The position numbers and the translations under genes were made by a program. A DNA stretch of 64,000 bases, taken from assembly GCA_963082975.1 (NCBI GenBank), contig OY720350.1, positions 705,001 to 769,000 of the forward strand, in the 5' to 3' direction. This document shows positions 22,190 to 59,600 of this stretch, piece by piece. This DNA is from Labia minor. Taxonomy: Eukaryota > Arthropoda > Insecta > Dermaptera > Spongiphoridae. The notes below the pieces were generated by a model, which was not told where the DNA came from, searched no databases, and saw only the letters and a program-made list of their open reading frames with translations. Within the stretch, counting starts at the first letter, position 1; every line of letters starts with the position of its first letter.

Positions 22190-22612
22190 TTTATATAACT
22201 CAAAGATACTCGAAAGTTCTTGGCCACATTTCTCCAAATGTCCCTATCCTGAGCCCTTGTCCCATCTCTCTTACGTCCCTTCCTAAGCGTCCATGGTCTT
22301 GATTCCCTTTGATAATAATTTTGATGAGATAAGCCTCTTTACTGCATGATAACAGGCGTTTCCCGATTGATACCTCGATTTAAATTCTTCTCAAATATTA
22401 TTATCCTTCGTGATTACATTCAATTTTTCTACATATTCAAATTTTACATTTTGTATATTAAGATTTTGTATGTTAATACTGTTCCTCTTTGTCACTAAAT
22501 ATTTTTTCTTATCACTATTAATTTCAAACCTCCATTAATTTTTCCTCGCTATCTGTAATTGCAATTGCCGAATCTCTTATAATATTTAAGACGTCTGCTT
22601 AGCCTAACTTTT
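22190..22612 (-). pseudogene. LINE RT fragment inside Helitron F
   Basis: The minus strand matches the LINE piece of the other Helitron copies, from the decayed YADD-type box (LG-stop-ADVLNII near 22600) to the RAQDRDTW-type tail near 22230, with an internal deletion around 22290. It is broken by stops. Confidence 0.65.
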
Positions 22613-22629
22613 CAATTTTTTTGTTTAAT

Positions 22630-25672: not shown

Positions 25673-25985
25673 CTAGGTGCTTAGACCGCCTTCGACGCTC
25701 ATAACACATAGGCAGGGAACTCTGTCCCCTGTACCCCCGAAGTGATACATAGTATTTGAATAAAAGTCTGGATGTCAAAGGTTTTCATCCATTTTCTCAA
25801 ACAGTATATTTTATAAAACATTCTTTTTTTTTTTGTTAATTGTCTTATTTAAAATATATTTTAATTTAATCTATAAATTAATTATATATTATTATTGTAT
25901 CTATCTATCTATGTGCCTCAACGGATCAAGAAAGATCTTGGCCGAGGTAACCCAATTTCTCCAACATTTCCATGAATCATGCATT
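25673..25985 (-). mobile_element. Helitron 3' end relic
   Basis: Starts with the complement of CTAG at 25673 next to host A, then the decayed stem-loop (gaccgccttcgacgctc) and the family block ...GTACCCCCGAAGTGATACAT and TTTTCATCCATTTTCTC. The first part of the LINE tail follows to about 25985, where another LINE fragment takes over. Confidence 0.7.
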
Positions 25986-26304: not shown

Positions 26305-26376
26305 TGACCCCGACGTGATTTGAACACGCAACCTTCTGATCTGGAGTCAGACGCGCTACCGTTGCGCCACGGAGTC
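26305..26376 (-). tRNA. tRNA-Trp: tRNA-Trp (CCA)
   Basis: 72 nt on the minus strand. The acceptor stem GACTCCG pairs with CGGGGTC (one G-T pair); discriminator A. The D arm holds the A box TGGCGCAACGG. The anticodon stem TCTGA/TCAGA encloses loop CTCCAGA with anticodon CCA. The T arm contains GTTCAAATC. There is no intron and no mismatch in any stem, so it looks functional. It stands alone in repeat-rich spacer. Confidence 0.97.
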
Positions 26377-28914: not shown

Positions 28915-29729
28915 GTACCAAACAAAAACACTATTTTAATTTATTTTTAAATTAATTTAAAAATTAAAATTAATATAAAAAACCGGTAAAATATCTTATT
29001 CATTTCCATTACTATTAATTTAAATTATTTGAAAATGTCTAATTTAAATATTTATATAGAATATAAATTGTAAATAACATTTTGTGCTATTAGAAAAAGA
29101 TTGTACATAATATTATTGTATATAATAAGAATATAATATATATATATATAATAGACATTTGAAAATAATTTTTTATATAAAATTTCACTTTCTTAATATT
29201 TTGTGTTACTTATTAAAATAAATTATTTATTAATAATAATTTGTAATCTCTAAACTCAAATATATACGAAAGCTATCCTTTTCACTTCACTCTACATCTC
29301 ATTCATCTACACCCATTAAAAACTTACAGTAATATTGACATGAAAAAATTGGATTAAATTAAAAAAGATTTATTTTATTATTATTTTTCAAAAGTTTCCA
29401 ATAAATTAATCGATTATATTCTGTTGTAATTAATAATTATTAAATATATTTATTTATTTATTACAATATATATATATATACAACTAGCTGCTCCGAGCGC
29501 CTTCGGCGCTCTCCACACCTAGACAGGGGCTCCGCCCCCTGTACCCCCGAGTGGTACATAGTATTTTGTGGTTGAAAGTAGTAAAAGGTTTTCATCCATT
29601 TTGTTTCACTCAGTATATCACATAAAACATTCATTTCTTTTTGTGTTCTTATTTAAAATATATTTTAATTTAATCAGTAAATTAATTATATATTATTATT
29701 ATTGTTATATCTATCTATCTTTGTGACTC

Positions 29730-30125
29730 TAAGGAACTCGAAAGTTCTTGGTCACAGCAACCACATTTCTCCAAGTGTCCCTATCCTGAGCCCTTGTCCC
29801 ATCTCTCTTACGTCCCTTCCTACGCGTCATTGGACGTTTTCCAATAGGTCTCCGCACCGTTTTCCAATCCAATATCTTTTTCCACTCCCATTCTAGCCAC
29901 GTCCTCTGCCTATTGCAGCTTTTTCGCTCTTATAACCCTAACTATTTCTGAAGATGCATAGAGGTCATGCAATTCCTTGTTATGCAGTCTCCGCCATTCC
30001 CCGGTGTCCTCATCTTTCTTTGGCCAATAAATGCGGGGAAGAATCCTATTCTCAAATACTCTGAATCTACTCTCATCTCCCAGGGTTATAGACCATGCCT
30101 CCCACCCATATAATACAACAGAAAA
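29730..30125 (-). pseudogene. LINE RT C-terminal fragment in Helitron E
   Basis: The minus strand corresponds to YGWEAWSxTLGDESRFRVF, then RILPxIYWPKK and the WxNVVAVTKNF-like tail of the other copies, with stops and small indels. Confidence 0.75.
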
Positions 30126-30309
30126 ATAATTGTTTTATATATTTTAATTTTGATCCCCTTTGATAATAATTTCCCGATTGCAGTCTCGATTTAAATTCTT
30201 TGCAAATATTATTCGCTCTGATACTAATTATTTTGCATTATCACTATTAATTTCAAACCCCATCACTTTTCCTGCCTCGATTATTTTTTCATGCTACTTT
30301 AAATGTTAG

Positions 30310-34610: not shown

Positions 34611-35109
34611 CTATATATATATATATTAAAATTAAGTATATCTGATAATAATCTGACATTGTATTTTTATATATATAATACTTATAATTGAAGAAAAGTA
34701 AGGCATTTCACTAGTCAGCATTTTCATTTTCATTTTCATGTTTTCTATTTTTTTTTTTTTACTTTTTATTTTTACTTTTTGATAAATTTAATTGTTTTTT
34801 TTTTCTTTTTAAAGAATGCCAATACGGCAATTCTAAATGAAATCAAAGAGTAATTATTTAAAATAAATTAAGATATAAGTATAAGTAAATCATTTACTTT
34901 CATATAAGGATGAGAAAATTATTTAATTTATTAATGTAAATAAACCAGTCGTTGGATTTTGATTTTTCGAAATTAATTCAAGATCAATTGTGAAAAAGGA
35001 TAATAAAAATTAAATATAAATTAAAAATTGTAAATTGGAATTATGTTAAGTTAAATATTAGAATTTAATTATCTATAAAATATATTTCAAGAAAAATAAA
35101 TTTAAAAAA

Positions 35110-35370
35110 ATAAATCACAATAATAACTATTTTTTTAATTATTATAAAAATATTGTGATATAATTTCATCGAAATCGGTTCAACCAATTTTGAGTCTATA
35201 ACGTCAGAATTTCCAGCCAGCCAGTCATACAGACAGACAGACAAACATGAAAAATTCTAAAAATCACTTTTGGATTATTTTAGAGGTGATGATGAAACGC
35301 AAAGAAATTTTAAATTCTGAGCAATATGCAGACAAAAAGCTTTTTTTTATAATATATTTAAATACTAGTA
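35110..35370 (-). mobile_element. Older Helitron 5' segment relic
   Basis: Same word order as the 5' parts of copies C and D: TGTGATATAATTTCATCGAA-TCGGTTCA, CAGACAGACAGAC, TGAAAAATTCTAAAA, then AAATTCTGAGCAATATGCAG and ACAAAAAGC. Many substitutions mark it as older. The terminal TC is not recognisable. Confidence 0.7.
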
Positions 35371-36076
35371 CACCTATATACCTACGAGATGTATGTAGAT
35401 GATGCATTTACTAGTCAATGGTAGTAAATGGCCAGTTAATTCAAGTGATCAGAGAAATTATAATAATTTTATATTATTTTAACTTAAAAGAAAACACGGA
35501 ATTATGGTCCATTCGTTTATAGTATTCTAAAATAATAGATATATTTATGTATTTTCGTCAAAATTTGAATTTCGTGATTAGTATTATCCGAGAAATAATC
35601 ATTAATAATTTAATTCTTTAAAAATTTTGAGGTGAAAATTATTCGAAGGTTCCCCTACTCTCCCCTCCTGTAACTTGTTAATTAAATTAATAATTTAAGA
35701 GCCTACTTTTATTCTATATTTTATAAATAGATGAAAATTTTTTTAAACAAATGAATTTTTCAATTTATGATGTGTAAAAATTAATAAACCAAAATAGGGA
35801 AAAACTCGGTAAATAACTTGGATTGCTGAAACATGTACTCTTAATATTAATATTGATAAAATCACATTAGCATATTTATCTATCATAAGATGTAATAAAT
35901 TATAAGTATTATAAAACAACAAATTCTTTTTTATGTCTGATATCAATCTTTTTAATCTACATCTTAATTATATTGTAAATATGATTATCATCATACCAAA
36001 ACTACATTTAGATATATGTGTACCTACATGTATAAAAAAGAAAAAAAATAAATTATAAATTTCCCTGTTGGTTTAC

Positions 36077-36110
<34 letters not shown>

Positions 36111-36136
36111 TATATGTTTGTTTGTGAAAGTTTTTA

Positions 36137-36476
36137 TTATTATGAGAAATTATTTCCGGATTATTCCTAGTTACGTTCCATTGTTAGATTTGGGATTTGG
36201 GTTACACAGCTTGTCATCAGGAGCAGACGTGTGTCAGGGCTCAGAGCTCGAGGGTTAGCGTTTAGAGTTTCAGAACAGAGTAAATTCAAAATCATCCGCC
36301 CATTTAATCCAAAATTCCCACATCGGCTCTTGATCATACATATATATATATTAAGACCTAAAATTCCCAAAAAAAAATACCCTCCTAAATAAACTCTTTT
36401 CAAAATGGTGCCAAAAAGGACGCCGAAACGTCACAATGGAACGCGAGAGTAACCAGAAAATAATTTCTCATAATAT
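36137..36476. mobile_element. Inverted-repeat element, 340 bp
   Basis: Ends mirror each other: left ATTATGAGAAATTATTTCC then ACGTTCCATTG; right CAATGGAACG then AAATAATTTCTCATAAT. Between them are TCATCAGGAGCAGACG (minus CTGATGA) at 36214-36229 and GACGCCGAAACGTCAC at 36419-36434. The combination of CTGATGA and CGAAAC words recalls the hammerhead motifs of Penelope-like elements. An open frame across it on the minus strand (36167-36403) has no known domain. Confidence 0.65.
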
Positions 36477-36479
36477 TAT

Positions 36480-37820
36480 ATATATGATATATGATATATT
36501 TATATCTCATTCAATCTTTCATTTAGTTATCACACTTGTTTTTTTTTTCATATTATTTTTTTCTTTTTATCGAAGAATATAAAAAATATTAATGATAAAA
36601 AATAAAAAAAAAAAAAAAATCAAGTTCTAGTTCATGGTTTATTAGAAAAATAAATAAAATTATTCTTAGATTTAAAACTTGTTTAAATAATATATTAAAT
36701 TAAATTTAAATATTAAATCAAATTAATGAGGTAAACTGTAAATGCACAAAAAATAAACAAATAGTATTTAATATTATTTTATTTAGTTCTATTACTAAAT
36801 AATTATTCAATTTTGAGCGTGGGTGTAGGTACATTTCGATTAATTGTCAGTGTTTTGTTTTATCTACAAATGAATTGGTGAGGAAACTGCAACAACTGCA
36901 CATTAACAAATTTATATTTTATACCTTTCAAGTGGCATATTTGAAAAATTGAATGGCACACGCAGAGACAAAATTATTTTTTTAATAATCTTAACTTTTT
37001 TCAATCCACACTTAATTTATAATTTATGATATCAATTTTTGGAACTGAATATTTATTTATCTACATATCTACTTAGTATAGGTTAACTAAAATTAATCTA
37101 CATTACTTTTTACCAAATTGAACATGGAATTACTGAAATGTCAGGGCAGTGAGATCCATATTCATAATTAATCCCGGGGGATCTACTCTGACCTCTACTA
37201 TAACTTAATTTACATCCCCCCCCCCCCCCTAAATCAATCCATTCTACATTTCTTTCACATTTATACACTGTAAATCACAAAAGAAATAAATGTGGCCATT
37301 GCAATTTATTATTAAAATATAAACACCTAAATTATGTTATATTGTAGTAGGATATGTACAGGTTTAGTTGAAAATTTTTGAAAGCGATATCTTTAAACCA
37401 GTAGAAGAATCAAAATTAATACGCCAGTTTAATATTTAATCTTTCATAGGAACACACTGAAAATTTTATTTCCATCTGTCCATTCATTCTTTGTTTAAAA
37501 GCCTTTGGAAATGGACGTGTCAGAGTATTTTGCTTGTTTAAATGCAATTGTGGTATAATAGCTGTAAAATAATCATCTTATTGCAATCATTATCATTGAA
37601 ATGTAACTTAATTACGAGAAATGCTTAGATAGTCCCTTTACTATTGGACCCCACCCGCATTGCATGTCCTCATTATGGTACCTGTCCACTGCCTCCATCA
37701 GTTACGTTTTTTTTTTTTTTTAGAATTTCCTTTTAAAAAACTAATTTTAAATTATAAGCGGTCGATACATATTTTATTTGATGTTTATTTTATAAATCAT
37801 AGGCTTTTATTAATATATAT
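36480..37820. other. Spacer without recognised features
   Basis: AT-rich; a run of C at 37217-37229; no gene, terminal repeat or RNA gene supported. Confidence 0.5.
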
Positions 37821-38272
37821 CAGGGCTTCGAACCGGAACTGAACCGAAAACCGAAAAAAACCGGTATTTTTGCCGGAACGAAAACCGGAGCTGAACCGAA
37901 AAAAATAATATCGGTTTATTTCAGTTCAGTGTTCAATCCAGAGTTGCCAGAAGTGGTGTTTTTGGGCGTTTTGGCAACACCCAAGCCCGAATTTTTTTCA
38001 ATTAGTTATGTCTCGTACTGCATGGTGTCGCTAAAAACTTTGTTTCAAAAATTAGTGTCCTAGTCATACTCTCCCTTCGGTTGTGTTGGCAGCGTCTCGT
38101 AGTCGCAATACAGAATTTAATGTTTTCATCGTTTGTTTAATACTGATATTTTGATTTAATGATAGTATTAATTTTTTAAATTATTTATTCCATTTGTTAC
38201 AGGGTTATGTATTGATATAAAGAAAATGATTCATAAATATAAATAAAATTATTAAATAAATTTAAACAAATA

Positions 38273-38529
38273 TTGAATAACTTTGACCAAGTACGAAGAT
38301 TAGACAGTAAAAAACATATTTTAGAATTTTGGGAGGAAAATAAAAATACATATCCTCATTTTAACAAAATTGCAATGGTGGTTTTAGGAGCTACTCCAAC
38401 ACAAGTTGTTAGTGTTGAAAGAGCTTTCTCTGGTTTAAAGTTTATTTTACGAGACAATAGAAATAGTTTAAATACAAATATATTGGAAGATATTTTAATA
38501 ATTAGAGGTATAATTTTCATCTTTTATAA
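38273..38529 (+). pseudogene. hAT transposase C-terminal dimerisation domain
   Basis: Reads LDSKKHILEFWEENKNTYPH, then FNKIAMVVLGATPTQVVSVE and RAFSGLKFILRDNRNSLNTN, LEDILIIRG. This is the hAT dimerisation domain (the VERAFSG block). The N-terminal and catalytic parts are absent. The coding sequence is cut at 38530 by the Helitron pair; codons read beyond that point belong to the Helitron 5' end. Confidence 0.9.
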
Positions 38530-38641
38530 TCTATATATATAAAAAAAGGTTTTTGTCTGCACATTGCTCAGAATTTAAAAATTTTTGCATATCTTCGCGT
38601 TTCATGACCTCTAGAATCCAAAAGTGACTTTAGAATTTTTC

Positions 38642-38643
38642 AC

Positions 38644-38674
<31 letters not shown>

Positions 38675-38704
38675 GGTCTGTCTGTCTGTCGGTCTGTCTG
38701 TCCG
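38642..38704. repeat. (GTCT)n array in Helitron A
   Basis: Imperfect tetranucleotide array with GTCG variants, about 110 bp from the 5' end. It is present at the same place in every copy with this 5' end. Confidence 0.95.
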
Positions 38705-39080
38705 GAAAATTACTATTTTATAGACTCAGAATTGGCTGAACCGATTTCTTTGAAATTACATCACAATATTCTTATATACCCCTAGAGTAACATAGGCTAT
38801 AAATTTTATTTATATGTCAACAATAACCGCAGAAATTAATTTTTTAAAGTTTATATAATTCTCCGTGTTGTTCATTCAAGAGCAGCTCGCGGCTCACTGC
38901 CGGCCTAGCGGAATCATTTCAAACAATGAATTATCATAGCTATTCCCAATCAAAGAATTATTATAATATTTCCCTTTTTATTTTAAATTCTAATATACAA
39001 ATATCAATTCAATTAAATAATTTATTCTAAAAGTTCTCAATTTAATTAAAATATTTATTAGATCATATTTTTATCTTAAA

Positions 39081-41408
39081 CTAGCTGCTCAGAGCGCCTT
39101 CGGCGCTCTTCACACCTAGACGGGGGCTCCGCCCCCTGTACCCCCGGGTGGTACATAGTATTTGGTTGAAAGTAGTAAAAGGTTTTCATCCATTTTGTTT
39201 CAATCCGTATATTACATAAAACATTCATTTCTTTTTGTGTTCTTATTCAAAATCTATTTTAATTTAATCAGTAAATTAATTATATATATTATTATTATTG
39301 TATATGTTATATCTATCTATCTATGTGGCTCAAAGATACTCGAAAGTTCTTGGCCGCAACAACCACATTTCTCCAATTGTCCCTATCCTAAGCCCTTGTC
39401 CCATCTCTCTTACGTCCCTTCCTACGCGTCATTGGTTTTCCAAGCGGACGTTTTCCAATCGGTCTCCCCACCAATATCTTTTTCCTCTCCCATTCTAGCC
39501 ACGTGCCCTGCCTATCGCAGCTTTTTCCCTTTTATAACCCTAACTATTTCTGAAGATGCAGAGAGACCATGCAATTTCTTGTTATGCTGTCTCCCCCATT
39601 CCCCGGTGACCTCATCTTTCTTTGGCCAATAAATGCAGGGAAGAATCCTATTCTCAAATACTCTGAATCTACTCTCATCTCCCAGGGTCATAAACCATGC
39701 CTCCCACCCATATAATGCAACAGGCAAAATAATTTTTTTATATATTTCCTTTGATAATAATTTTGAAGAGATAAGCCTCTTTATTGCAAGATAACAAGTC
39801 GTTTCCCGATTGCAACCCCGATTTAAATTCTTCTCAAATATTATTATCCTTCGTGATTACATTCAATTTTTCTACATATTCAAATTCTACATTTTGTATC
39901 TTAAGATTTTGTATGTTAATACTCTTCCTCTTTGTTACTAAATATTTTTTCTTATCACTATTAATTTCAAACCTCCATTAATTTTTCCTCGCTATCTTCA
40001 ATTGCAATTTCCTAATCTCCTATTATATTTAAGTCGTCTGGGTAACCTAACATTTTACAATTGATTTCCGCATCTTATTCTTTCTTTACTACCTTCAAGA
40101 CAAATTTGAAGATCAAAATTTGAAAAAGTTTATGCTTATCTATATTGAATCATGTGTATGTTTTACTAAAGTCTACAAATAATTAGTGAACAGAAATATT
40201 GAATTCGCAGTTTTTTTCCTAATATCTGTCATAATGAAAATATCTTAATTAATGTTGATCGATTTGGCCTGAACCCGCAATGATATCTCCTAATATTTCC
40301 TCCGCCTATGGTTCTTAAGTATTGTATATGTTATAATAGTGAAATAGAGTATAATATTTCTTGATCATTACATTTTGATATTTTATTTTCATTGCTAGAT
40401 TATTATTGAATATTTTTAATTATAATGAAAATTGAGAAAATGCAAAAATAGAGACTTGAGACAATTTATAAAAATTAACGGTATAAAACTATAGATAAAT
40501 TACCAATATATACATTCATTAATAGTATTAATTTAAATTAATTGATTTATTTGTTTTTTTATTATTAAGTTCATTTATTAATTTTTTTAGATCATAGTTA
40601 TTTTCCTCCCTTAAAAGAAACTTATCTAATTCTGTGGTGCTAGGGGATTTGAAAATTATATTAGTCGCAATATGAAGATTTCGCTTACAGTTTTTCTGTC
40701 ATGTCCGACCTCCGTCCAACAGTTATTTCCCTCAAGTTTCTTGATTCTCTTAATCATGTGATCTATATATTTAATTTTTTTTTGATTCATTGTAATAAAA
40801 TTTAAACAAATAAAAATTTTCACTTTGTTAATTTATATAAATTTCAATTTACACTGATTGTGAGTGATACGCTTTGCCAATACTCTGAATAATTTGTGTA
40901 TAGAAATATTGAATGTTCTTAGCGAGATTTTTTAACCTTTCACTTTCATATAGAAAAGAAGAAATATTCAAATATATAGAAAGAATAAATAAAAATTAAG
41001 TTAATATAAATATGATCTAAATATTTTATTAAATTAATGAAAATGGGAACTTTTAGAATAAATGATTTAATTGAATTGATATTTAAATATTAGAATTTAA
41101 AATAAAAAGGGAAATATTATAATAATTCTTTTATTGGGAATCGCTATGATAATTCATTGTTTGAAATAATTCCGCTAGGCCGACAGTGAGCCGCGAGCTG
41201 CTCTTGAATGAACAACACGGAGAATTATCTAAACTTTAAAAAATTAATTTCTGCGGTTATTGATAATATATTAATAAAATTTATAGCCTATGTTACTCTA
41301 GAGGTATATAAGAATATTGTGATGTAATTTCAAAGAAATCGGTTCAGCCAATTCTGAGTCTATAAAATAGTAATTTTCCGGACAGACAGACCGACAGACA
41401 GACAGACC

Positions 41409-41452
<44 letters not shown>

Positions 41453-41565
41453 TGAAAAATTCTAAAGTCACTTTTGGATTCTAGAGGTCATGAAACGCGA
41501 AGATATGCAAAAATTTTTAAATTCTGAGCAATGTGCAGACAAAAACCTTTTTTTATATATATAGA
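39081..41565 (-). mobile_element. Helitron copy C nested in copy A
   Basis: Minus strand: 5' TC at 41565, 3' CTAG complement at 39081. The host bases are A 39080 and T 41566. The joined flanks TATCTTAAA + TTATTTTTTATTT occur uninterrupted in copy B near 45513-45528, an exact empty site with no duplication, as expected for Helitrons. Length is 2485 bp. It lacks the AT-rich filler that A and D carry. Confidence 0.95.
39300..40330 (-). pseudogene. LINE RT fragment in Helitron C
   Basis: Minus-strand homologue of the piece in copies A, B and D. A readable stretch at 39727-39512 is MPVALYGWEAWFMTLGDESR, FRVFENRILPCIYWPKKDEV and TGEWGRQHNKKLHGLSASSE. It is cut off by stops and carries the YxDD-type box near 40040. 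Confidence 0.85.
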
Positions 41566-42931
41566 TTATTTTTTATTTAATTGAATATTTCTTCTTTTCT
41601 ATAATATATATATAATAATATATAAATTTTATCATTGAATAATAAAAAAAAATATTATTTAACCTGAATTAAAATGACTGAATTATATTATCTTTGTTTT
41701 TTATTTTAATTTAATTACTCTATTATTAATTAACTATATATATATATATATATTATATAAAAATTAAAATATGATGATATAAAGTTGTTTTAAATTTTTG
41801 ACATTTTTAAATTGGGTATATTTTTTAAATTTATTAAAATGTCTTTTTTATTTATTATGTTTAAAAGATTCATTTTTATTATGTGATATTAATAAAAAAT
41901 AACGATGCTCTGTGCAAGTCGAATCATGTTGCACATAATTAAATAACAATTGCCAAACAAAGAATATAATATTTTTTTAAATTCTTATATTTAAATATCA
42001 TTTCAATTAAATAATTTATTCTAAAAGGTCTCATTTTAATTAATTTAATAAAATATTTAAATCACCATTCAATTTTTTATTAATAGGCTTCTTTTTTTAT
42101 TTTTAATTTTTAATAAATTCTCTTTTTTTGATATGATATTAATAAAAAATAATATTAAATTGTATATAAATATAAAAATTAGAATATTTGAATTTTTTTA
42201 AATTTTAACACATGTAATCAATCATATGCATTAAGAATTGAAAATTTTTAAAATCAACTTGCTATTAAATTCAGAAAAAAAATACTGATATATAGAATAT
42301 ATAGACTATTCGAATATAATTTAAAACTCTCTTTCTCTCCTTCTATTTTAAATTAAAAAAACGGAGTTTTAAGAAATTTAGATGCCATATGCAACATGGG
42401 TGGGTAAATGAATTGGGCTGGAAGAGGAGGCAATTTATAATTTTCTTCTAATTCAGATTTAGGACAAATCGTACAACATTATATCAAATCTCGCTAAGAA
42501 CATTCAATATTTTTGTACACAAATTATTCAGAGTATTGGCTAAGCGTATCACTCACAATCAGTTTATATTGAAATTTATATAAATTAACAAAGTAAAAAT
42601 TTTTATTTGTCTAAATTTTATTATAATGAATCAAAAAAAATTAAATATATAGATCACATGATTAAGAGAAGCAAAAAACTTGACAGAAAATAACTGTTGG
42701 ATGGAGGTCGGACATGACAGAAACTGTAAGCGAAATCTTCATATTGCGACGAATGATTTTCAAATCCCCTAGCACCACAGAATTTAAGTTTCTTTTAAGG
42801 AAAATAACTATGATCTAAAAAAATTAATAAATGAACTTAATAATAAAAAAACAAATAAATCAATTAATGAATGTATATATTGGTCATTTATCTATAGTTT
42901 TATACCGTTAATTTTTATAAATTGTCTCAAG

Positions 42932-43595
42932 CAGGGCCGCGACGTGGGTGCAAAGCGCCCGTGTGCAAATTTTTAAAAAGCGCCCCCTCTATCAATAGAA
43001 CAATAAAATCAAATAAAACATTTAATTTTGAAAACTGTGTTTATGAATACAGAGGAATTTATCTACATAATAATAGGAAATAACAAAATAATTAACTCAT
43101 TAACAATAGAAACAAGGTTAAATTTCTAGAACAATAAACATAAAAAAAAATTCAAAAATGAAAACATAATACAATATGAAATTCCATCACAAAACTATAC
43201 TATTCGGATTCTTCGAGCCTTTGAAGCTACAAAACCTTTAATAATATCATATATTTCTAAGTTATCCATGATTTCATTTTCTATTGCTATCATAGAAAGA
43301 TCTGTTAAGCGCTCCTGCGACAATGTCGAACGCAAATTCGTTTTTATAATTTTTAACTTAGAGAAGCTTCGTTCACCCGAAGCTACAGTTACGGGCAAGG
43401 TTAGAAAGATACGCAGTAAAACAAACAAATTTGGAAAATATATTTAAACGTGTCGTAGGATTCACGTACACAATTATATTGATTCATTTTTAAAACACTT
43501 AAAATAAAATAAAAAAAGAATGGTCAGTTTGGCGCCCCCTACACCAGGCGCCCGTGGGCAGCGCCCACCTTGCACACGTGCACGCCGCGGCCCTG
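42932..43595 (-). mobile_element. hAT element 2 nested in Helitron A
   Basis: 664 bp. Ends CAGGGCCGCGACGTG and complement CAGGGCCGCGGCGTG. A perfect 8 bp duplication GTCTCAAG lies at 42924-42931 and 43596-43603. Copy B holds the same site unoccupied (46513-46520), proving the insertion. Inside is only a short transposase end. Confidence 0.96.
43195..43428 (-). pseudogene. hAT dimerisation domain fragment in hAT 2
   Basis: Minus strand: LLRIFLTLPVTVASGERSFS, then KLKIIKTNLRSTLSQERLTD and LSMIAIENEIMDNL. This is the TTF/ZMYM-type hAT C-terminal dimerisation domain (the LPVTVASGERSFSKLK block). It is about 77 codons of a normally 600-plus residue transposase. Confidence 0.9.
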
Positions 43596-43759
43596 GTCTC
43601 AAGTCTCTATTTTTGCATTTTCTCAAGTTTCATTATAATTAAAAATATTCAATAATAATCTAGCAATGAAAATAAAATACCAAAATGTAATGATCAAGAA
43701 ATATTATACTCTATTTCACTATTATAACATATACAATACTTAAGAACCATAGGCGGAGG

Positions 43760-44735
43760 AAATATTAGGAGATATCATTGCGGGTTCAGGCCAAATCGAC
43801 CAACATTAATTAAGATATTTTCATTATGACAGATATTAGGAAAAAAACCGCGAATTCAATATTTCTATTCACTAATTATTTGTAGACATTAGTAAAACAT
43901 ACGCATGACTCAATAGATCCGGATAAACTTTTTCAAATTTTCAATCTTCAAATTTGTCTTGAAGGTAGTAAAGAAAGAATAAGATGCGGAAATCAATTGT
44001 AAAATATTAGGTTACCCAGACGACTTAAATATAATAGGAGATTCGGCAATTGCAATTACAGATAATTTAATGGAGGTTTGAAATTAATAGTGATAAGAAA
44101 AAATATTTAGTAACAAAGAGGAAGAGTATTAACATACAAAATCTTAAGATACAAAATGTAGAATTTGAATATGTAGAAAAATTGAATGTAAACACGAAGG
44201 ATAATAATATTTGAGAAGAATTTAAATCGGGGTTGCAATCGGGAAACGCCTGTTATCTGCAATAAAGAGGCTTATCTCTTGAAAATTATTATCAAAGGGA
44301 ATATATAAAAAGATTATTTTGCCTGTTGCATTATATGGGTGGCAGGCATGGTCTATGACCCTTGGAGATGAGAGTAGATTCAGAGTATTTGAGAATAGGA
44401 TTCTTCCCTGCATTTATTGGCCAAAGAAAGATGAGGTCACCGGGTATGGGGGAGACTACATAACAAGAAATTGCATGGCCTCTCTGCATCTTCAGAAATA
44501 GTTAGGGTTATAAAAGGGAAAAAGCTGCGATAGGCAGGGCACGTGGCTAGAATGGGAGAGGAAAAAGATATTGGTGGGAAGACCGATTGGAAAACGTCCG
44601 CTTGGAAAAAAACGCGTAGGAAGGGACGTAAGAGAGATGGAACAAGGGCTCAGGATAGGGACACTTGGAGAAATGTGGTTGTTGCCGCTAAGAACTTTCG
44701 AGTATCTTTGAGCCACATAGGTAGATAGATATAGC
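43760..44735 (+). pseudogene. LINE RT fragment in Helitron A
   Basis: In shifting frames: NREFNISIHQLFVDISK (RT region with a decayed KAYD), LEGSKER-RCGNQL, then LGYPDDLNIIGDS (the catalytic YxDD box, here YPDD). After it come KKYLVTKRKSINIQNLKIQN, the ALYGWQAWSMTLGDESRFRV block, and the tail WxxVARMGEEKDIGGKTDW. Palm sequence between the GNQL and YPDD blocks is missing. Same strand as the Helitron. Not functional. Confidence 0.88.
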
Positions 44736-45073
44736 ATATACAATAATAATATATAATTAATATAGTGATTAAATTAAAATATATTTTTTAAATAAGAACA
44801 CAAAAAGAAATGAATGTTTTATGTAATATACTGATTGAAACAAAATGGATGAAAACCTTTTACTACTTTCAACCACCAAATACTATGTAACACTCGGGGG
44901 TACAGGGGGCGGAGCCCCCGTCTAGGTGTGAAGAGCGCCGAAGGCGCTCTGAGCAGCTAGTCTATATATATAAAAAAAGGTTTTTGTCTGCACATTGCTC
45001 AGAATTTAAAAATTTTTGCATATCTTCGCGTTTCATGACCTCTAGAATCCAAAAGTGACTTTAGAATTTTTCA

Positions 45074-45077
<4 letters not shown>

Positions 45078-45113
<36 letters not shown>

Positions 45114-45143
45114 GGTCTGTCTGTCTGTCGGTCTGTCTGTCCG
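45078..45143. repeat. (GTCT)n array in Helitron B
   Basis: Same imperfect array as in A, with a slightly different repeat number. Confidence 0.95.
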
Positions 45144-46639
45144 GAAAATTACTATTTTATAGACTCAGAATTGGCTGAACCGATTTCTTTGAAATTACAT
45201 CACAATATTCTTATATACCTCTAGAGTAACATAGGCTATAAATTTTATTAATATCTTATCAATAACCGCAGAAATTAATTTTTTAAAGTTTATATAATTC
45301 TCCGTGTTGTTCATTCAAGAGCAGCTCGCGGCTCACTGTCGGCCTAGCGGAATCATTTCAAACAATGAATTATCATAGCTATTCCCAATCAAAGAATTAT
45401 TATAATATTTCCCTTTTTATTTTAAATTCTAATATACAAATATCAATTCAATTAAATAATTTATTCTAAAAGTTCTCAATTTAATTAAAATATTTATTAG
45501 ATCATATTTTTATCTTAAATTATTTTTTATTTAATTGAATATTTCTTCTTTTCTATAATATATATATAATAATATATAAATTTTATCATTGAATAATAAA
45601 AAAAAATATTATTTAACCTGAATTAAAATGACTGAATTATATTATCTTTGTTTTTTATTTTAATTTAATTACTCTATTATTAATTACTAAATATATATAT
45701 ATATTATATAAAAATTAAAATATGATGATATAAAGTTGTTTTAAATTTTTGACATTTTTAAATTGGGTATATTTTTTAAATTTATTAAAATGTCTTTTTT
45801 ATTTATTATGTTTAAAAGATTCATTTTTATTATGTGATATTAATAAAAAATAACGATGCTCTGTGCAAGTCGAATCATGTTGCACATAATTAAATAACAA
45901 TTGCCAAACAAAGAATATAATATTTTTTTAAATTCTTATATTTAAATATCATTTCAATTAAATAATTTATTCTAAAAGGTCTCATTTTAATGCAATTTAT
46001 AATTTTCTTATAATTCAGATTTAGGACAAATCGTACAACATTATATCAAATCTCGCTAAGAACATTCAATATTTTTGTACACAAATTATTCAGAGTATTG
46101 GCTAAGCGTATCACTCACAATCAGTTTATATTGAAATTTATATAAATTAACAAAGTAAAAATTTTTATTTGTTTAAATTTTATTATAATGAATCAAAAAA
46201 AATTAAATATATAGATCACATGATTAAGAGAAACAAAAAACTTAACAGAAAATAACTGTTGGATGGAGGTCGGACATGACAGAAACTGTAAGCGAAATCT
46301 TCATATTGCGACGAATGATTTTCAAATCCCCTGGCACCACAGAATTAGATAAGTTTCTTTTAAGGGAGGAAAATAACTATGATCTAAAAAAATTAATAAT
46401 TGAACTTAATAATAAAAAAAACAAATAAATCAATTAATTAAAATTAATACTATTAATGAATGTATATATTGGTCATTTATCTATAGTTTTATACCGTTAA
46501 TTTTTATAAATTGTCTCAAGTCTCTATTTTTGCATTTTCTCAATTTTCATTATAATTAAAAATATTCAATAATAATCTAGCAATGAAAATAAAATATCAA
46601 AATGTAATGATCAAGATATATTATACTATTATAACAGAG

Positions 46640-47650
46640 AAAATACTTAAGAACCATAGGCGGAGGAAATATTAGGAGATATCATTGCGGGTTCAGGCCA
46701 AATCGATCAACATTAATTAAGATATTTTCATTATGACAGATATTAGGGAAAAAAATCGCGAATTCAATATTTCTGTTCACTAATTATTTGTAGACTTTAG
46801 TAAAAGATACGCATGACTCAATATAGATCAGCATAAACTTTTTCAAATTTTGATCTTCAAATTTGTCTTGAAGGTAGTAAAGAAAGAGTAAGATGCGGAA
46901 ATCAATTGTAAAATATTAGGTTACTCAGACGACTTAAATATAATAGGAGATTCGGCAATTTCAATTACAGATAGCGAGGAAAATTTAATGGAGGTTTGAA
47001 ATTAATAGTGATAAGAAAAAATATTTAGTAACAAAGAGGAAGAGTATTAACATACAAAATCTTAAGATACAAAATGTAGAATTTGAATATGTAGAAAAAT
47101 TGAATGTAATCACGAAGGATAATAATATTTGAGAAGAATTTAAATCGGGGTTGCAATCGGGAAACGCCTGTTATTTGCAATAAAGAGGCTTATCTCTTCA
47201 AAATTATTATCAAAGGGAATATATAAAAAGATTATTTTGCCTGTTGCATTATATGGGTGGGAGGCATGGTCTATGACCCTTGGAGATGAGAGTAGATTCA
47301 GAGTATTTGAGAATAGGATTCTTCCCTGCATTTATTGGCCAAAGAAAGATGAGGTCACCGGGGAATGGGGGAGACAGCATAACAAGAAATTGCATGGTCT
47401 CTCTGCATCTTCAGAAATAGTTAGGGTTATAAAAGGGAAAAAGCTGCGATAGGCAGGGCACGTGGCTAGAATGGGAGAGGAAAGAGATATTGGTGGGAAG
47501 ACCGATTGGAAAACGTCCGCTTGGAAAACCAATGACGCGTAGGAAGGGACGTAAGAGAGATGGAACAAGGGCTCAGGATAGGGACACTTGGAGAAATGTG
47601 GTTGTTGCGGCTAAGAACTTTAGAGTATCTTTGAGCCACATAGGTAGATA
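46640..47650 (+). pseudogene. LINE RT fragment in Helitron B
   Basis: As in A, with the catalytic box as GYSDDLNIIGDS (46919 onwards) and the open stretch 47237-47452 reading MPVALYGWEAWSMTLGDESR, FRVFENRILPCIYWPKKDEV, TGEWGRQHNKKLHGLS. The next frame continues with GHVARMGEERDIGGKTDW. Confidence 0.88.
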
Positions 47651-48351
47651 GATATAACATATACAATAATAATATATATAATTAATATAGTGATTAAATT
47701 AAAATATATTTTTTAAATAAGAACACAAAAAGAAATGAATGTTTTATGTAATATACTGATTGAAACAAAATGGATGAAAACCTTTTAATACTTTCAACCA
47801 CCAAATACTATGTACAACTCGGGGGTACAGGGGGCGGAGCCCCCGTCTAGGTGTGAAGAGCGCCGAAGGCGCTCTGAGCAGCTAGTTATAGTTATAATTG
47901 TAAGTAAATATATCCAAGAATCCTGTATACTTTAACATTAAATATACGAATTTGTTTCGTTTGTTGAGTGTTTGTGAAACTAGAAGGATGTAAAAAAATA
48001 TTCATACTTATTTGTTCCGTTTAATAAATTATATTAACATCTTATATTATATACTTCTAATTATTATACCTTTAATTAATTATTATTATTTATATTATAT
48101 TGTATCAATTCATGTAGTATGATTTAGGGTGGTAGCAAGAAATATTTTTATATATTTATGGCAGACTCGGCATACCTCGACCTAAATTTCTAATACAAAT
48201 AAAAGGTCTTTAAAATTAATTAATCGGAACTGAACCGAAAACCGAAAAAAACGGTATTTTTGCCGGAACGAAAACCGGAACCGAACTGATATTTTTTTTT
48301 ATTGAACCGGAACGAAAACCGAAACGAAAAAAATAACGGTTCGAAGCCCTG

Positions 48352-51053
48352 ATATATATATATATATATATATATCAGTTTAAAATATTGTTAGATACTT
48401 TTAGTAAAAGCAAGTACTAAAAAAATAGTTAAATAAATGATTCCAATGATACCTGAATGTAGGTATGTAAGTTTTATATAATAATGTTGAACATTTACCT
48501 TAAAATTTATAATTTAAGATATTTTGTTGATGATAATTTTGTAAAACTCTGGCTTAGTCTCCAGCTCAACAGTTTATATTTATAAAAGATTTTATTCGAA
48601 AATATTAAATGAAAAAATAAAATTATTTTTCCAAAAAAAAAAAAAAAAAAAAAAAATAAAAATTTGTTTAAATTTTAATTCAAATAATCAATCGAATGTA
48701 AATTAAATTTGTTGCGGTAGGCGGATTCCCCGTGGTAGAAAGACTGAGAACATTTTAGCTAGAAACTTGGATGTTGGATGTTGGATGTGGGGAAACCAAT
48801 TGAGAAACGATCGCGATGGGCGGACGTGAGATCAAACATAATAATAATAGAAATAATTTTCAAGAATTTTGTGGATATTACATTAATGATATCCTAATAA
48901 GTTCTGAAAAAAATTTGCAGATTATCTGTGTCCTATAAAGAAAGTTGCATAACAATTTTAGCTTTTCGTTTCTTTACACTTTAACTAAGATTTTTGAAGC
49001 AAAAAGGTAACGTGGCGGCATTTTAGTTTTTTTTTTTCTGGATTGTGAAAACAAACAAAAATGTATAAAATAAAATAAAAATGAGAAAAATCATAACAAT
49101 TTTATTGTGGCACGTTAGTTACTCCATAAAGATTTTTTTATAACACTTATGGTACGCACATTGAAAAAAAAATCGCCATTCCTGTTTTAGAATATAGTAT
49201 ATATATAATATATATATTATATTAAATTGTGTCGATGGATTTCCATTGTTCTAGTGTCTAGCCTGTATACCTCCTATACACAATACTACTATTATTATTT
49301 TACAAATGCATTTTTCTTTAAGACCAACTTACTTCTTTATTGCAAATGGATTCCATTATTTATATCATATCAATTTTTACTACTACAGTAGATAAAATAA
49401 CATTAGATATAATAATAATCTAAAAAATATAGGATAGGTAGAAATTTTTTAGAAACTTTATTTATTATTTGTTCATAGAATAATTCTGAATATATTATAT
49501 TTTTATTTTAAAATCTAATCTAATAAACAGAAATAAATTATTTGAATGTTGTTTATTAAATATTTTAAAATTAATTATTCATATTGATGATAAGTGGCTT
49601 ATTTTTTTGATTGTCTATCAAAATTTTTGTTGGAAAGGTTATCAACAAAAATTATATATCATAGGGAAATGAACTTTGATTTTTTTTTTTTTTTTTTTTT
49701 TTTTTTATTTGATTTTTTTAATTTTTTTTTTTAAAAACAAGTTAGAGAGAAAGAAAAGAGACTGGAATGTTTCTTGTTGTTGGCCAAGAGGAAGAAGAAT
49801 TAATGAATAATCTATTCATGTTGTATGGAAAAAATTATTCTAATCGGATGAATGAATGAATGAATGGTGAAGAGAAGAAGAATGTCTTGTTTCTCGATAT
49901 TGATTATGCCACTAATCATTCATCCTTTAATATTTCTTGTGTGTTAATCAAAGATATAATAGCTATTTAATATAAATAAATAAATATCGATATATTTAAT
50001 TAAGTATATATTCGTATATAAAATATATTATATTCTTTATTGTAACACACACAGACACACACACATACACACACATTTTACATAAGAAAAGAAAAGAAAA
50101 GAAAATGAAATGAAAATTAATAGAAATAATTGGAAATTTTTTTTAAAAGATATTTTCAAAATTTCCAAAAAAAAAAACAAAACAAAAAAAATGTTACAAA
50201 TTAAAAAGATAAGATAATATTTAATAAATGTTTATTTGTACATCATGCTAAAAATACTTTTTTCTGTTAATACGTTAAAATGTTAAAATGCATGATGATT
50301 CGTGGAGCTAATATATAAAAATCTCCACATGTGAAATTTGGTGTGATTTCTATCGTCTATCAGTAAAAAATAAACTTTTTAATAAATTTATTTGTTTATG
50401 TTTAAATTTATATAAAATTTGCCTAAATTATTTTTTCTTTTTAATTTCAAAATTCAAAATTAATTAATTAATTAATTGTATATAATATAAACATCAGATG
50501 GCGTTCAATCTATTTTCTTTTTCGGACTTGGTTTCAAAAGCTTGCAGTGTTTGTCAAATAACGAATATTTACCAAATACCGAGCACCAAGTTTAGATGCC
50601 TGTATTGGAGTTGGCCTAATAACAAATATTCGTCGAATGTGCTCGCACCCGAATGTTTGTGCTCGGCATACGAGTGAGTATACTGGAGTATACCAAGCAC
50701 AGGGCAAGCAACCCATCCACACACATCCACGGTGTGTTTTACAAATGTTTTGCTCTAATATTTGGCAAAAACACCGCATGTCTGGAGCCGACTTTAGAAA
50801 CGAATACATTTCAAATAAACTTATAAACTAATAATAATTTTAAAATAATAATAATAATAATAATAATTTAAGATTACCTATATGATCCAAAATATTTTAT
50901 TAAATTAATTAAAATGAGAATTTATAGAATAAATTATTTAAATGAAATGATATTATATTGGAATATTAGAAACCTAAAATAAATAATTAAATATTAAAAT
51001 TAAAATATTAAAATATTAATTTGTATGAGGATTGCTAGAATTATTATATTATA
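48352..51053. other. Spacer with minor relics
   Basis: Around 48700-48850 (plus) RKTENILARNLDVG-type words suggest a LINE tail remnant. A run of A at 48633-48655 and T at 49682-49706; (CA)n at 50047-50075. At 50545-50780 are ends GCAGTGTTTGTCAAATA and complement GCGGTGTTTTTGCCAAATA, a possible small hAT-like element without a clear target duplication. No gene is seen. Confidence 0.4.
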
Positions 51054-51289
51054 CTAGCTGCTCAGAGCGCCTTCGGCGCTCTTCACACCTAGACGGGGGC
51101 TCCGCCCCCTGTACCCCCGAGTGGTACATAGTATTTGGTGGTTGAAAGTAGTAAAAGGTTTTCATCCATTTTGTTTCAATCAGTATATTACATAAAACAT
51201 TCATTTCTTTTTGTGTTCTTATTTAAAAAATCTATTTTAATTTAATCACTATATTAATTATATATATTATTATTGTATATGTTATATCT

Positions 51290-52300
51290 ATCTACCTATG
51301 TGGCTCAAAGATACTCGAAAGTTCTTAGCCGCAACAACCACATTTCTCCAAGTGTCCCTATCCTGAGCCCTTGTTCCATCTCTCTTACGTCCCTTCCTAC
51401 GCGTCATTGGTTTTCCAAGCGGACGTTTTCCAATCGGTCTCCCCACCAATATCCTTTTCCTCTCCCATTCTAGCCACGTGCCCTGCCTATCGCAGCTTTT
51501 TCCCTTTTATAACCCTAACTATTTCTGAAGATGCAGAGAGACCATGCAATTTCTTGTTCTGCAGTCTCTCCCATTCCCCGGTGACCTCATCTTTCTTTGG
51601 CCAATAAATGCAGGGAAGAATCCTATTCTCAAATACTCTGAATCTACTCTCATCTCCAAGGGTCATAGACCATGCCTCCCACCCATATAATGCAACAGGA
51701 AATTAATTTTTTTATATATTCCCTTTGATAATAATTTTGATGAGATAAGCCTCTTTATTGCAAGATAACAGGCGTCTCCCGATTGCAACCCCGATTTAAA
51801 TTCTTCTCAAATATTATTATCCTTCGTGATTACATTCAATTTTTCTACATATTCAAATTTTACATTTTGTATATTAAGATTTTGTATGTTAATACTCTTC
51901 CTCTTTGTTACTAAATATTTTTTCTTATCACTATTAATTTCAAACCTCCATTAATTTTTCCTCGCTGTTTGTAATTGCAATTGCCGAATCTCCTATTATA
52001 TTTAAGTCGTCTGGGTAACCTAATATTTTACAATTGATTTCCGCATCTTACTCTTTTTTTACTATCTTCAAGACAAATTTGAAGATCAAAATTTGAAAAA
52101 GTTTATCCGAATCTATTGAGTCATGCCTATGTTTTACTAAAGTCTACAAATAATTAGTGAACAGAAATATTGCATTAGCGGTTTTTTTCCTAATATCTGT
52201 CATAATGAAAATATCTTAATTAATGTTGTTCGATTTGGCCTGAACCAGCAATGAGATCTAATATTTCCTCCGCCTATGGTTCTTAAGTATTGTATATGAT
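51290..52300 (-). pseudogene. LINE RT fragment in Helitron D
   Basis: Minus-strand homologue of the fragment in A and B, from the ARMGEExDIGG tail (about 51460) to the YPDD box (about 52010) and the REFN region (about 52170). Stops and a few indels, e.g. around 51560. Confidence 0.87.
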
Positions 52301-54192
52301 ATAATAGTGAAATAGAGTATAATATTTCTTGATCATTACATTTTGGTTTTTTATTTTCATTGCTAGATTATTATTGAATATTTTTAATTATAATGAAACT
52401 TGAGAAAATGCAAAAATAGAGACTTGAGACAATTTATAAAAATTAACGGTATAAAACTATAGATAAATTACCAATATATACATTCATAAATAGTATTAAT
52501 TTAAATTAATTGATTTATTTGTTTTTTTATTATTAAGATCATTTATTAATTTTTTTAGATCATAGTTAATTTCCTCCCTTAAAAGAAACTTATCTAATTC
52601 TGTGGTGCTAGGGGATTTGAAAATTATTAGTCGCAATATGAAGATTTCGCTTACAGTTTCTGTCATGTCCGACCTCCATCCAACAGTTATTTTCTGTCAA
52701 GTTTTTTGCTTCTCTTAATCATGTGATCTATATATTTAATTTTTTTTGATTCATTATAATAAAATTTAAACAAATAAAAATTTTTACTTTGTTAATTTAT
52801 ATAAATTTCAATATAAACTGATTGTGAGTGATACGCTTAGCCAATACTCTGAATATTTTGTGTACAAAAATATTGAATGTTCTTAGCGAGATTTGATATA
52901 ATGTTGTACGATTTGTCCTAAATCTGAATTAGAAGAAAATTATAAATTGCCTCCTCTTCCAGCCCAATTCATTTACCCACCCATGTTGCATATGGCATCT
53001 AAATTTCTTAAAACTCCGTTTTTTTAATTTAAAATAGAAGGAGAGAAAGAGTTTTAAATTATATTCGAATAGTCTATATATTCTATATATCAGTATTTTT
53101 TTTCTGAATTTAATAGCAAGTTGATTTTAAAAATTTTCCATTCTTAATGCATATGATTGATTACATGTGTTAAAATTTAAAAAAATTCAAATATTCTAAT
53201 TTTTATATTTATATATACAATTTAATATTATTTTTTATTAATATCATATCAAAAAAAGAGAATTTATTAAAAATTAAAAATAAAAAAAGAAGCCTATTAA
53301 TAAAAAATTGAATGGTGATTTAAATATTTTATTAAATTAATTAAAATGAGACCTTTTAGAATAAATTATTTAATTGAAATGATATTTAAATATAAGAATT
53401 TAAAAAAATATTATATTCTTTGTTTGGCAATTGTTATTTAATTATGTGCAACATGATTCGACTTGCACAGAGCATCGTTATTTTTTATTAATATCACATA
53501 ATAAAAATGAATCTTTTAAACATAATAAATAAAAAAGACATTTTAATAAATTTAAAAAATATACCCAATTTAAAAATGTCAAAAATTTAAAACAACTTTA
53601 TATCATCATATTTTAATTTTTATATAATATATATATATATATATAGTTAATTAATAATAGAGTAATTAAATTAAAATAAAAAACAAAGATAATATAATTC
53701 AGTCATTTTAATTCAGGTTAAATAATATTTTTTTTTATTATTCAATGATAAAATTTATATATTATTATATATATATTATAGAAAAGAAGAAATATTCAAT
53801 TAAATAAAAAATAATTTAAGATAAAAATATGATCTAATAAATATTTTAATTAAATTGAGAACTTTTAGAATAAATTATTTAATTGAATTGATATTTGTAT
53901 ATTAGAATTTAAAATAAAAAGGGAAATATTATAATAATTCTTCGATTGGGAATCTCTATGATAATTCATTGTTTGAAATGATTCCGCTTGGCCGACAGTG
54001 AGCCGCGAGCTGCTCTTGAATGAACAACACGGAGAATTATATAAACTTTAAAAAATTAATTTCTGCGGTTATTGATAAGATATTAATAAAATTTATAGCC
54101 TATGTTACTCTAGAGGTATATAAGAATATTGTGATGTAATTTCAAAGAAATCGGTTCAGCCAATTCTGAGTCTATAAAATAGTAATTTTCCG

Positions 54193-54193
<1 letters not shown>

Positions 54194-54291
<98 letters not shown>

Positions 54292-54292
54292 G
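54194..54292. repeat. (GACA)n array in Helitron D, expanded
   Basis: About 24 almost perfect repeats, without the interrupting variants seen in A, B and C. The array lies at the same place, about 110 bp from the 5' end. Confidence 0.96.
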
Positions 54293-54411
54293 TGAAAAAT
54301 TCTAAAGTCACTTTTGGATTCTAGAGGTCATGAAACGCGAAGATATGCAAAAATTTTTAAATTCTGAGCAATGTGCAGACAAAAACCTTTTTTTATATAT
54401 ATAGAAGATTA

Positions 54412-56617: not shown

Positions 56618-59600
56618 GTATTATATTTGTTTTTTATTTATAGATATAATAATAATAATATATATATATATCTTCTATATATTATTTATAATCGTAATTT
56701 AAAAATTCTATCTATTTTTTTTTTTCTATATCTTAAGTTTTTTCTTTTAAATTAATATTTTTTAAATGAAATATTTGATATATTTTTCTAATTTTGATGA
56801 CTGCCTAAATTTCAGGCGTCATTTAAGATGCGATAAAATAACAATATGTACATACTTATGTATATGTCGTAGACAGATGACAACTTTAGGAAAATAGCAT
56901 TTGCCTAGACTCTAAAGGCCATTTGGCTAAATCTTTGTTGGACAAATGCTTTCAAAGTGCAATCTCATTAAACAAGTATATTTTGTTCGTTGTATTTAAA
57001 TAAATATGCATAATGAAAAGTGATGTGCTAACGTAAGTAATTAAAATTCATGTTGAATCCATTTAATTTTAAGGATAGTTTATTATAAACCAAGTATATT
57101 TAACAATATAGTACCCAAAGAATTCGAGAATAAGTAATATTTTATCCCAATTATTTTGTTTATATCTTTTTACTATCTCCCCAGAGATTTTGATGTTTTT
57201 ATACGTTTAGAAGGCCCCTGAGTCATTTTCACTAAAGTTGAGAAAAATGTCTCTCTCTCTCTCTCTCTCTCTATCTCTGTGTGTGTGATTATGTATGTGT
57301 GCATGTAGACAAGATTACGCAAAAAACAATTTGAACTAGAATCATGAAATTTGGTATACGTGCATTATTCAAAATTCGTAGTTTTCTATCAACTTGTGAG
57401 AAATGTAGCACTTTCGGAAGAGGGTCATTCATTACCTACAACGTTTTCATTTTTTTCCCTCTAAACTGACCGTAAAAATAAAGAGATATGTTTGATAGTT
57501 TTTCACATGATTAAAAATTGTATAAAACTGCTATTGGTATAGAATTTCAGCTTGATTGAATCGCTGAAAGTACCGGAATTAATTTTTTAAAAGGTTGACT
57601 AACAATCACGCGCCAGCACGTGACGTGGTCCCATCAACAAAGAGCCAAACACGCGCTGGTTTATAAATAATATTTATTAATTTATAATTTAAATATATAA
57701 TTAAAAAAATTTAATTTAAATATAATAATATATGTTAATTAATCCAATTCAAATTTGCGAGATAGTCGAGTGGAGACACGCCAGATTTTTTTTAAAACTA
57801 TTTGTTTCGTTATTAAATTCTTTTTAATTGATTAAAAGATTTTTTGAAAATAAATAATATATTTGGGTACTTTTTCTGTTTCTTTCCTCCCACTTTTTTT
57901 TTCCCAGGTTTGCTACTTTTACTAACGGAATGCAAAGGCAGACGAATACACTGATCGTATGTCTCGTTCATTTGTCATCGGCCCAATCAATGTCCGACAT
58001 TTTCTGAGCTATTTTCCTAGCCAAGTTAAAGCTATTTGGCCAGACAAATGCTATTTTCCTAAAATTGCCATTTGCCTACGACATCTTTTCATTTAAATAT
58101 TTACGTATATATTTACCTTTTTATTGTTAATTCGGCGCTCTTCGCAACTGGGCAGGGGGCTTTGCCCCCTGTGCCCCCGAAGTAGTACATAGTATTTGGT
58201 TAAAAGTTTATATGTAAAAGATTTTCATCCATTTTGTTTTTGTGTTCTTATTTAAAATAATTTATTAATTAATGAATTAAAATAATTTTATCTGAAAAAT
58301 ATAATAATATGATAAGAAACACATATAATAAAATAAAATATATTCATTTAATATATTATACTCCTACCTATAATGTTTAGTCTAGGTATTTTCATATAGC
58401 CTTTTTCTAGACAAAAGATTTGAATTATCTATATATTTTAAAGTGTATCATCAAAAAAAATTTGTAACATATTGTAAAAAGACAAGAAAAACATTAATTT
58501 ATATATATATATATATAATTACGACCCTTGAATCACCTATTAGCTGTAAAAAAAATTAATTGTAATCCCTGTTATGGGGAGAAAAGATATTTTATATGTG
58601 TGATTGGCTAATAAAAAATACTTTTTAAACCTAACTGAACTTCTACCTAATAAACAAAGTAAAAATCATAAATGTAATTAGATATTATTAACATCTCTAC
58701 ATATCTAAATGTTTTCATTTTTTAGAAATGATTAATGGTCGTGAAATTAGTTTTAATTATAATTCTTATAAACCATTAAAAAAATAAAAATAAAATATAT
58801 TTAAGATGCTTTGTTATTATGGCTTTTTTTTTATTATGGCTCCCCTTTTTTAAAAATACCTTTCTTTTATATTCATTTGGCCTTCAAACTTTAATTGCAA
58901 AAAACAAAAAACAAAAAAACAATTTATTTGACCCACTACCTGTTCAGTTATCCTTTGTTTTTCTTTCTATATACTAATGAGGTTGTAAAATTCGAATATC
59001 TATTTTTCATGGCCTATTTTGGAAATCTATTTTTGGGGGGTGGGCTACGATAGTGGATCTCAAGCCTATTTACTTATATTATACACTATCTTATAATTCA
59101 ATTCAATTCAATTCAAAAAATAAAAATAAAAAGGTAAATTTTGGAATATTATGTATATATTTTTAATTAATTTCTTTATTAATTTTTTATATAATAATAA
59201 TAATAATTTAATCTTAATTTATTTTGTTTTTAATAACATTTTTAATTAAATTATCTATTTAAAAATTAATTTGTTATTTTATAAAGATAGGTACTAATAA
59301 TATTTTTACTAATAAATAAGGATAGTATCATTTATTAAAAATAATAGATAATAATAAAAAAAATTATAATTTTTCTTCGATTTTGAATATTTGTCATTTT
59401 TAATTTATTTATTTATTTTTTATGTAGTGATATAATAATTATGTAAAAAACAAATCTATCTTTTTAAATATTTATTTTAGAGTGTATTAAAACGGTGAAA
59501 GATATTCCTGGCCCATATGCCTTACCATTTTTTGGCACCCGATGGATTTATTGGCCAATATTTGGTAAATATAAAATGGATCGGATTCATGAATCTTATC

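Follow-up and report, generated by a model that had tools for sequence, protein, structure and literature searches.

A nest of five mobile elements in Labia minor: a Helitron that landed already bearing a hAT element, most likely at the border of an older Helitron

When transposons lie nested within one another, can the order of their arrival be read from the nesting? The question is raised by a stretch of 64,000 nucleotides from the dermapteran Labia minor (the window; C9:705001-769000 of an assembly of 604 Mb in 71 contigs), in which two hAT elements and Helitrons A, B and C form a single nest of five mobile elements (Table 1). A preliminary description of this DNA had taken the order straight from the arrangement: hAT 1, followed by A and B as one arrival, and then C and hAT 2. 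Based on comparison with related copies across the genome, we consider it probable that the order was hAT 1, B, A with hAT 2 on board, and finally C, which makes four landings and not five.

Table 1. Elements and target duplications of the nest, with the neighbouring Helitron D (window coordinates)
Feature	Position	Strand	Basis
Left 8-bp target duplication of hAT 1 (ATATATAT)	37813..37820	.	sequence; within TA run
hAT 1	37821..48351	+	ends, Pfam, genome copies, empty-site copies L044, L045
Right 8-bp target duplication of hAT 1 (ATATATAT)	48352..48359	.	sequence
Helitron A, hAT 2-bearing subfamily, interrupted by C	38530..44960	+	5' TCTATATA, 3' CTAG; near relatives L015, L024
Helitron C, short subfamily with internal deletion	39081..41565	-	sequence; nearest relative; shared site
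Target duplication GTCTCAAG, left of hAT 2	42924..42931	.	sequence; same in 15/20 fetched loci
hAT 2, 664 bp, passenger of Helitron A subfamily	42932..43595	.	sequence, Pfam, genome joints
Target duplication GTCTCAAG, right of hAT 2	43596..43603	.	sequence; fetched loci
Helitron B, another subfamily, no hAT 2, probably older resident	44961..47885	+	sequence, comparisons
Helitron D, same family, outside nest	51054-54405	-	sequence

All borders named in the preliminary description proved exact when checked on the window sequence, and the class rules it had applied, 8-bp duplications for hAT elements and insertion between A and T without duplication for Helitrons, were confirmed. hAT 1 has the ends CAGGGCTTCGAA and is flanked by an 8-bp duplication of ATATATAT, which is weak evidence when taken alone because it lies within a TA run; hAT 2 is likewise flanked by 8 bp, GTCTCAAG. 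Both elements keep only a fragment of a transposase with the hAT dimerisation domain (Pfam Dimer_Tnp_hAT, PF05699), at 38243-38539 in hAT 1 (E 1.2e-11) and on the minus strand at 43198-43443 in hAT 2 (E 3.5e-11). Helitrons A, B, C and D all begin with TCTATATA and end with GCGCCGAAGGCGCTCTGAGCAGCTAG, showing the 5' TC and the 3' CTRR with a hairpin just upstream. The A-B pair (38530-47885) runs from TCTATATA to a hairpin followed by CTAG, with a host A before it and a host T after it, and its two units meet at 44960/44961 with zero bases between them, while C sits in reverse in A, between the A and T after base 551 of that element. Insertion between A and T without duplication is seen at the empty hAT 1 site, at the C site, which is uninterrupted in B and other copies, and in the flanks: in the window and the 20 loci fetched, T is the first base of every one of 30 distinct 3' flanks, and A is the last base in 23 of the 26 distinct 5' flanks, the rest having G (two, at head-to-tail joints) or T (one, at D). 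Since the ends match, the duplications and domains are present, and both further copies and empty sites exist in the genome, a chance origin is implausible and the nest is real.

Judged by frame length only, a Rep-helicase protein is absent: no open frame in the nest is longer than 157 amino acids from stop to stop, that one lying on the strand opposite to C, and the Helitrons of the nest therefore look non-autonomous. A part near the Helitron 3' end resembles what we take to be a scrap of a LINE reverse transcriptase, although two frames of this part remained below the Pfam cut-off. Elsewhere in the window, the same Helitron family has left older 3' fragments at 21954-22617, 25673-25964 and 29484-30213 (75-94% to D), a tRNA gene on the minus strand at 26305-26376 was the sole Rfam match (RF00005, 67.6 bits), and a pair of direct repeats of about 450 bp, 79.6% alike and unrelated to the nest, lies at 3447-3879 and 57304-57757. 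An open frame at 13105-13779 includes a stretch presumably akin to insect Rga/CNOT2; no Pfam family was found in this frame. A repeat scan of 35000-37820 gave no useful lead, and the Helitron 3' end had no match in viral contigs.

For comparison, 20 stretches of 10 kb were taken around the best matches to the first 551 bases of A, a choice that favours A-like copies (two of the stretches, L017 and L021, overlap), together with 24 further, shorter loci, of which 10 were taken at head-to-tail joints, 4 at the C site and a further 10 are L043-L052. hAT 1, split by the Helitrons, is a short non-autonomous hAT element with a length of about 1175 bp, and its left part is matched at 96-98% by 39 other places (among the best 40 of 1315 candidates, the 40th being the window itself). 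Two copies, L044 and L045, measure 1172 and 1178 bp, carry 8-bp duplications of their own (atcagtag and tttttaac) and read CATCTTTTATAATTATAGTT unbroken where the window has the Helitrons. The empty site is thus intact in both, and hAT 1 was therefore present before the Helitrons, as the preliminary description had it. At the hAT 1 site the Helitrons neither removed anything nor added anything else.

The position of hAT 2 in this order is different from the one suggested by its location. In 15 of the 20 fetched loci hAT 2 lies at one and the same Helitron base between the same two copies of GTCTCAAG, whole in 13 and internally deleted in two (L026, L028); the loci without it are L010, L011, L017, L021 and L023. 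The exact left joint between hAT 2 and Helitron occurs 98 times genome-wide and never in the reversed control, and 16 of these joints, the window and the 15 loci, were read in context. Since repeated independent hAT insertions at the same base with the same duplication are implausible, the Helitron carried hAT 2, and the copies at the Helitron site were multiplied by the Helitron, without hAT transposition, to about 98 places. On a tree of 26 copies the presence of hAT 2 requires one change, on the branch uniting all hAT 2 copies (support 63/88); L016 is odd in that it has hAT 2, lacks several bases typical of other carriers and falls outside their main clade. hAT 2 is thus older than the arrival of A, which landed already bearing it. 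The claim that hAT 2 inserted locally, after the pair, follows from physical nesting, and it is contradicted by the 15 loci and the 98 exact joints, so that the order first proposed, with both C and hAT 2 as local latecomers, retains next to no credibility. Because nesting alone misplaced hAT 2, the window by itself does not suffice for reading the order. As a separate observation, a B-type Helitron in L023 has an insert of about 630 bp (1890-2519) near the hAT 2 site, unmatched by hAT 2.

Did A and B, then, arrive together? A differs from L015, a copy whose 5' part is partially duplicated, at 5 of 3269 positions and from L024 at 5 of 3259, as against 49 of 2871 from B. In the comparison of 26 copies, private substitutions number 1 in 3269 positions for A, which bears out the recent activity already suspected at this spot, and 13 in 2896 for B. 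B is without some 380 bp that are present in D, a deletion that recurs in L021, L023 and L025. As A is near-identical to other hAT 2 carriers and B is distant with a deletion of its own, the two belong to different subfamilies and are non-sister copies. A rolling-circle dimer from one template would explain the perfect head-to-tail joint, and PMC5876387 and PMC2267711 discuss dimers of this type in bat and plants; however, the units of a dimer should be nearest each other, whereas A has hAT 2 and subfamily bases and B has neither, and their 49 differences stand against 5 between A and its nearest relative. For A-B the dimer reading is contradicted, and we regard it as extremely improbable.

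The same type of joint could be followed across the genome. The exact sequence CTAG/TCTATA occurs 44 times and is absent from the reversed control; the joints lie at 39 places, because five stretches hold two. With 2577 exact Helitron 3' ends in the genome, the chance expectation, calculated from the A^T frequency of the window and granting every 3' end a resident 5' border, is at most 0.04 joints, rising to 0.2 should insertions be confined to the best-scoring fifth of A^T sites. Seven pairs offered enough sequence for comparison (the window, L009, L017/L021, L034, L035, L037 and L038), and in six of them no variant is exclusive to both partners in a set of 23 rows. The exception is L035, where three variants are shared exclusively and the members are sisters (support 100/96); multimers or gene conversion therefore also occur, and the dimer reading stands for this pair. 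None of the 44 joints is flanked within 7 kb by the exact hAT 2 joint both upstream and downstream, which again argues against dimers. hAT 2 was found within this distance of six joints, upstream in five and downstream in one, one of the upstream cases (at -4680) being ambiguous in that it does not lie simply within the adjoining unit.

One clade (support 98/92) unites the upstream members of L034, L035, L037, L038 and L009 with the middle unit of L043 and the downstream member of L035, and the downstream partners of these upstream members are varied. The upstream 3' halves of L034, L035, L037 and L038 are 99.2-99.7% alike, as compared to 96.1-99.1% between each and its own partner. Across the seven pairs, the labels upstream and downstream showed no significant clustering on the tree (140 of 500 shuffles were as low).

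A second way for A and B to come together would be as a ready-made pair from a donor locus, by transposition reading past the 3' end of A, and composite Helitrons formed by self-insertion are indeed proposed in PMC5148889. Consistent with this, L025 (3501-9801) has the appearance of a read-through product, in which a hAT 2-bearing, A-type Helitron runs straight into a B-type fragment whose first base lies in mid-element, the whole being bordered by A and T. Furthermore, when the two sides of 13 joints were compared, the couples L033/L034 and L035/L038 proved at least 98.5% alike on either side, so some pairs may have travelled as a unit. Against a joint arrival of A and B, in the part of the other joints that was read, the downstream units of the arrays with hAT 2 upstream (L031, L050, L051 and the ambiguous L052) are no near-copies of B; two of them share its deletion, with 16 and 14 mismatches to B over about 1.5 kb. 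The arrival of the pair as a unit, as the preliminary description had it, is therefore unlikely, although it is the least improbable of the alternatives. Less likely still is that B was the later of the two, inserted in the G^T at the 3' border of A. This would give the same joint, and in L009 it is the downstream, hAT 2-bearing unit that has fewer private substitutions (3 vs. 13). It would, however, need a target other than A^T in a family whose flanks are as uniform as described above, and the private substitutions of the window pair (A 1, B 13) speak against B as the newcomer.

Cumulatively, these comparisons suggest that A most likely landed at the 5' border of B, rather than B at the 3' border of A or both together, and we read the joints in general as the result of insertion by new copies into the A^T of a resident's 5' border, with occasional dimers or conversion. 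Such use of the border was set against a target profile built from 25 of 28 distinct flanks, the three self-insertions having been dropped. The 5' border is a middling match to this preference, ranking 165th in A (top 20%), and its 44 uses are therefore not explained by ordinary target preference.

The age of C initially appeared to conflict with its place inside A. It differs by at least 3.5% from all 25 others in the first set and had 47 private substitutions, so that it seemed older than its host, because that set included no C-type relative. Once three units with its deletion, found at joints L029, L030 and L036, were added, its private substitutions dropped to 3, the other 44 being shared only with its own subfamily, and the view of C as an old element was abandoned. 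The nearest relative, the middle unit of an array at C1:50.46 Mb, differs from C at 13 of 2470 positions. C is thus a recent copy, which fits a late insertion in A, and A-type copies such as L012, L013, L020 and L022 run through its site uninterrupted; in placing C after A the preliminary description was right.

Genome-wide, this site is filled 11 times in the orientation of C and never in the opposite one. Eight of these cases were read at least partly (the window, L019, L023, L039, L040, L042 and two in L043), and their inner elements belong to several subfamilies. In L043 (C6:2210930-2218386), three Helitrons of the family are nested at 194-7457, each reversed at the same internal site of the next, such that the site is used twice, one copy inside another. 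Successive 5' ends on one strand were also seen in L017 (5365 and 6500) and L019 (6500 and 7074), comparable to the multi-5'-end elements of PMC5148889. On the target profile, the C site in the orientation of C falls in the top 0.45% of A^T sites (window 1-20000) and ranks 8th of 917 in A, as compared to 146th in the opposite orientation. Its high rank means that a plain preference for A/T-rich targets may explain the reuse, and as about 9 matches are expected by chance if only sites of this top class are used, the 11 uses were not accepted as proof of a special hot spot.

We propose that hAT 1 jumped first, into a TA run, and that B then inserted between an A and a T within it. The young Helitron A, already with hAT 2, would have entered the A^T that the host A makes with B's first base, T, a landing that yields the perfect head-to-tail joint. 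Last, C, of a third Helitron subfamily, entered A in reverse at the A^T after base 551, a site used by other Helitrons of the family as well. In this order hAT 1 precedes the Helitrons and C follows A, as first described; the local insertion of hAT 2 is replaced, and so, with less certainty, is the single arrival of A and B. More generally, insertion order taken from nesting alone can mislead because passengers travel inside other elements.

The joints also raise the possibility, which we put forward tentatively and think somewhat less probable than its opposite, that the family homes on itself: a resident 5' border would be a preferred landing point, recreating its target each time so that arrays grow 5'-ward, and the orientation-specific site after base 551 would be a second one, likewise recreated, as in L043. 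The border might attract new copies if the transposase nicking A^TC at the start of transposition can also join a new copy there.

Short non-autonomous hAT elements have 8-bp duplications, CAGGG ends and a remnant hAT dimerisation domain. These marks are shared by hAT 1 and hAT 2, although the hAT 2 copies described here were multiplied by a Helitron instead. In the accounts of such Helitron arrangements available to us, gathered by a search not aimed at this point alone, we found no hAT multiplied by a Helitron. Several features of the nest have counterparts. In maize head-to-tail Helitrons, CTAG is joined directly to TC, the partners are dissimilar and consecutive insertion was inferred (PMC2267711); a host A with the 5' T is named there as a canonical target, and stacking is one of two models for the pair. 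The maize case concerns one pair of unclear order, whereas here there are 44 exact joints, with seven pairs compared. The genome thus offers many cases for the question of dimer versus consecutive insertion, six of the seven pairs indicating separate copies, the seventh a dimer or conversion. FoHeli of Fusarium oxysporum includes self-insertion, nested and multi-5'-end Helitrons and a hAT inserted in a Helitron (PMC5148889); its authors found no evidence that the chimeric elements transposed, whereas here 98 places carry the hAT-Helitron joint, and 16 were read with their surroundings. A Helitron interrupted by another transposon is described from a baculovirus mutant (PMC4344730). The A^T target is that of Helraiser (PMC5876387) and Xuan-Feng (PMC13286980), and Helraiser further shares the 3' hairpin and the conservation of the terminal di- and tetranucleotides; as a point of difference, none of the copies in the nest has an open frame as long as a helicase would need. 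Helitrons that are nested, self-inserted or joined head to tail are already known, and the nest is ordinary in kind; its interest lies in the dissected stacking, the reused C site and a hAT carried to about 98 places.
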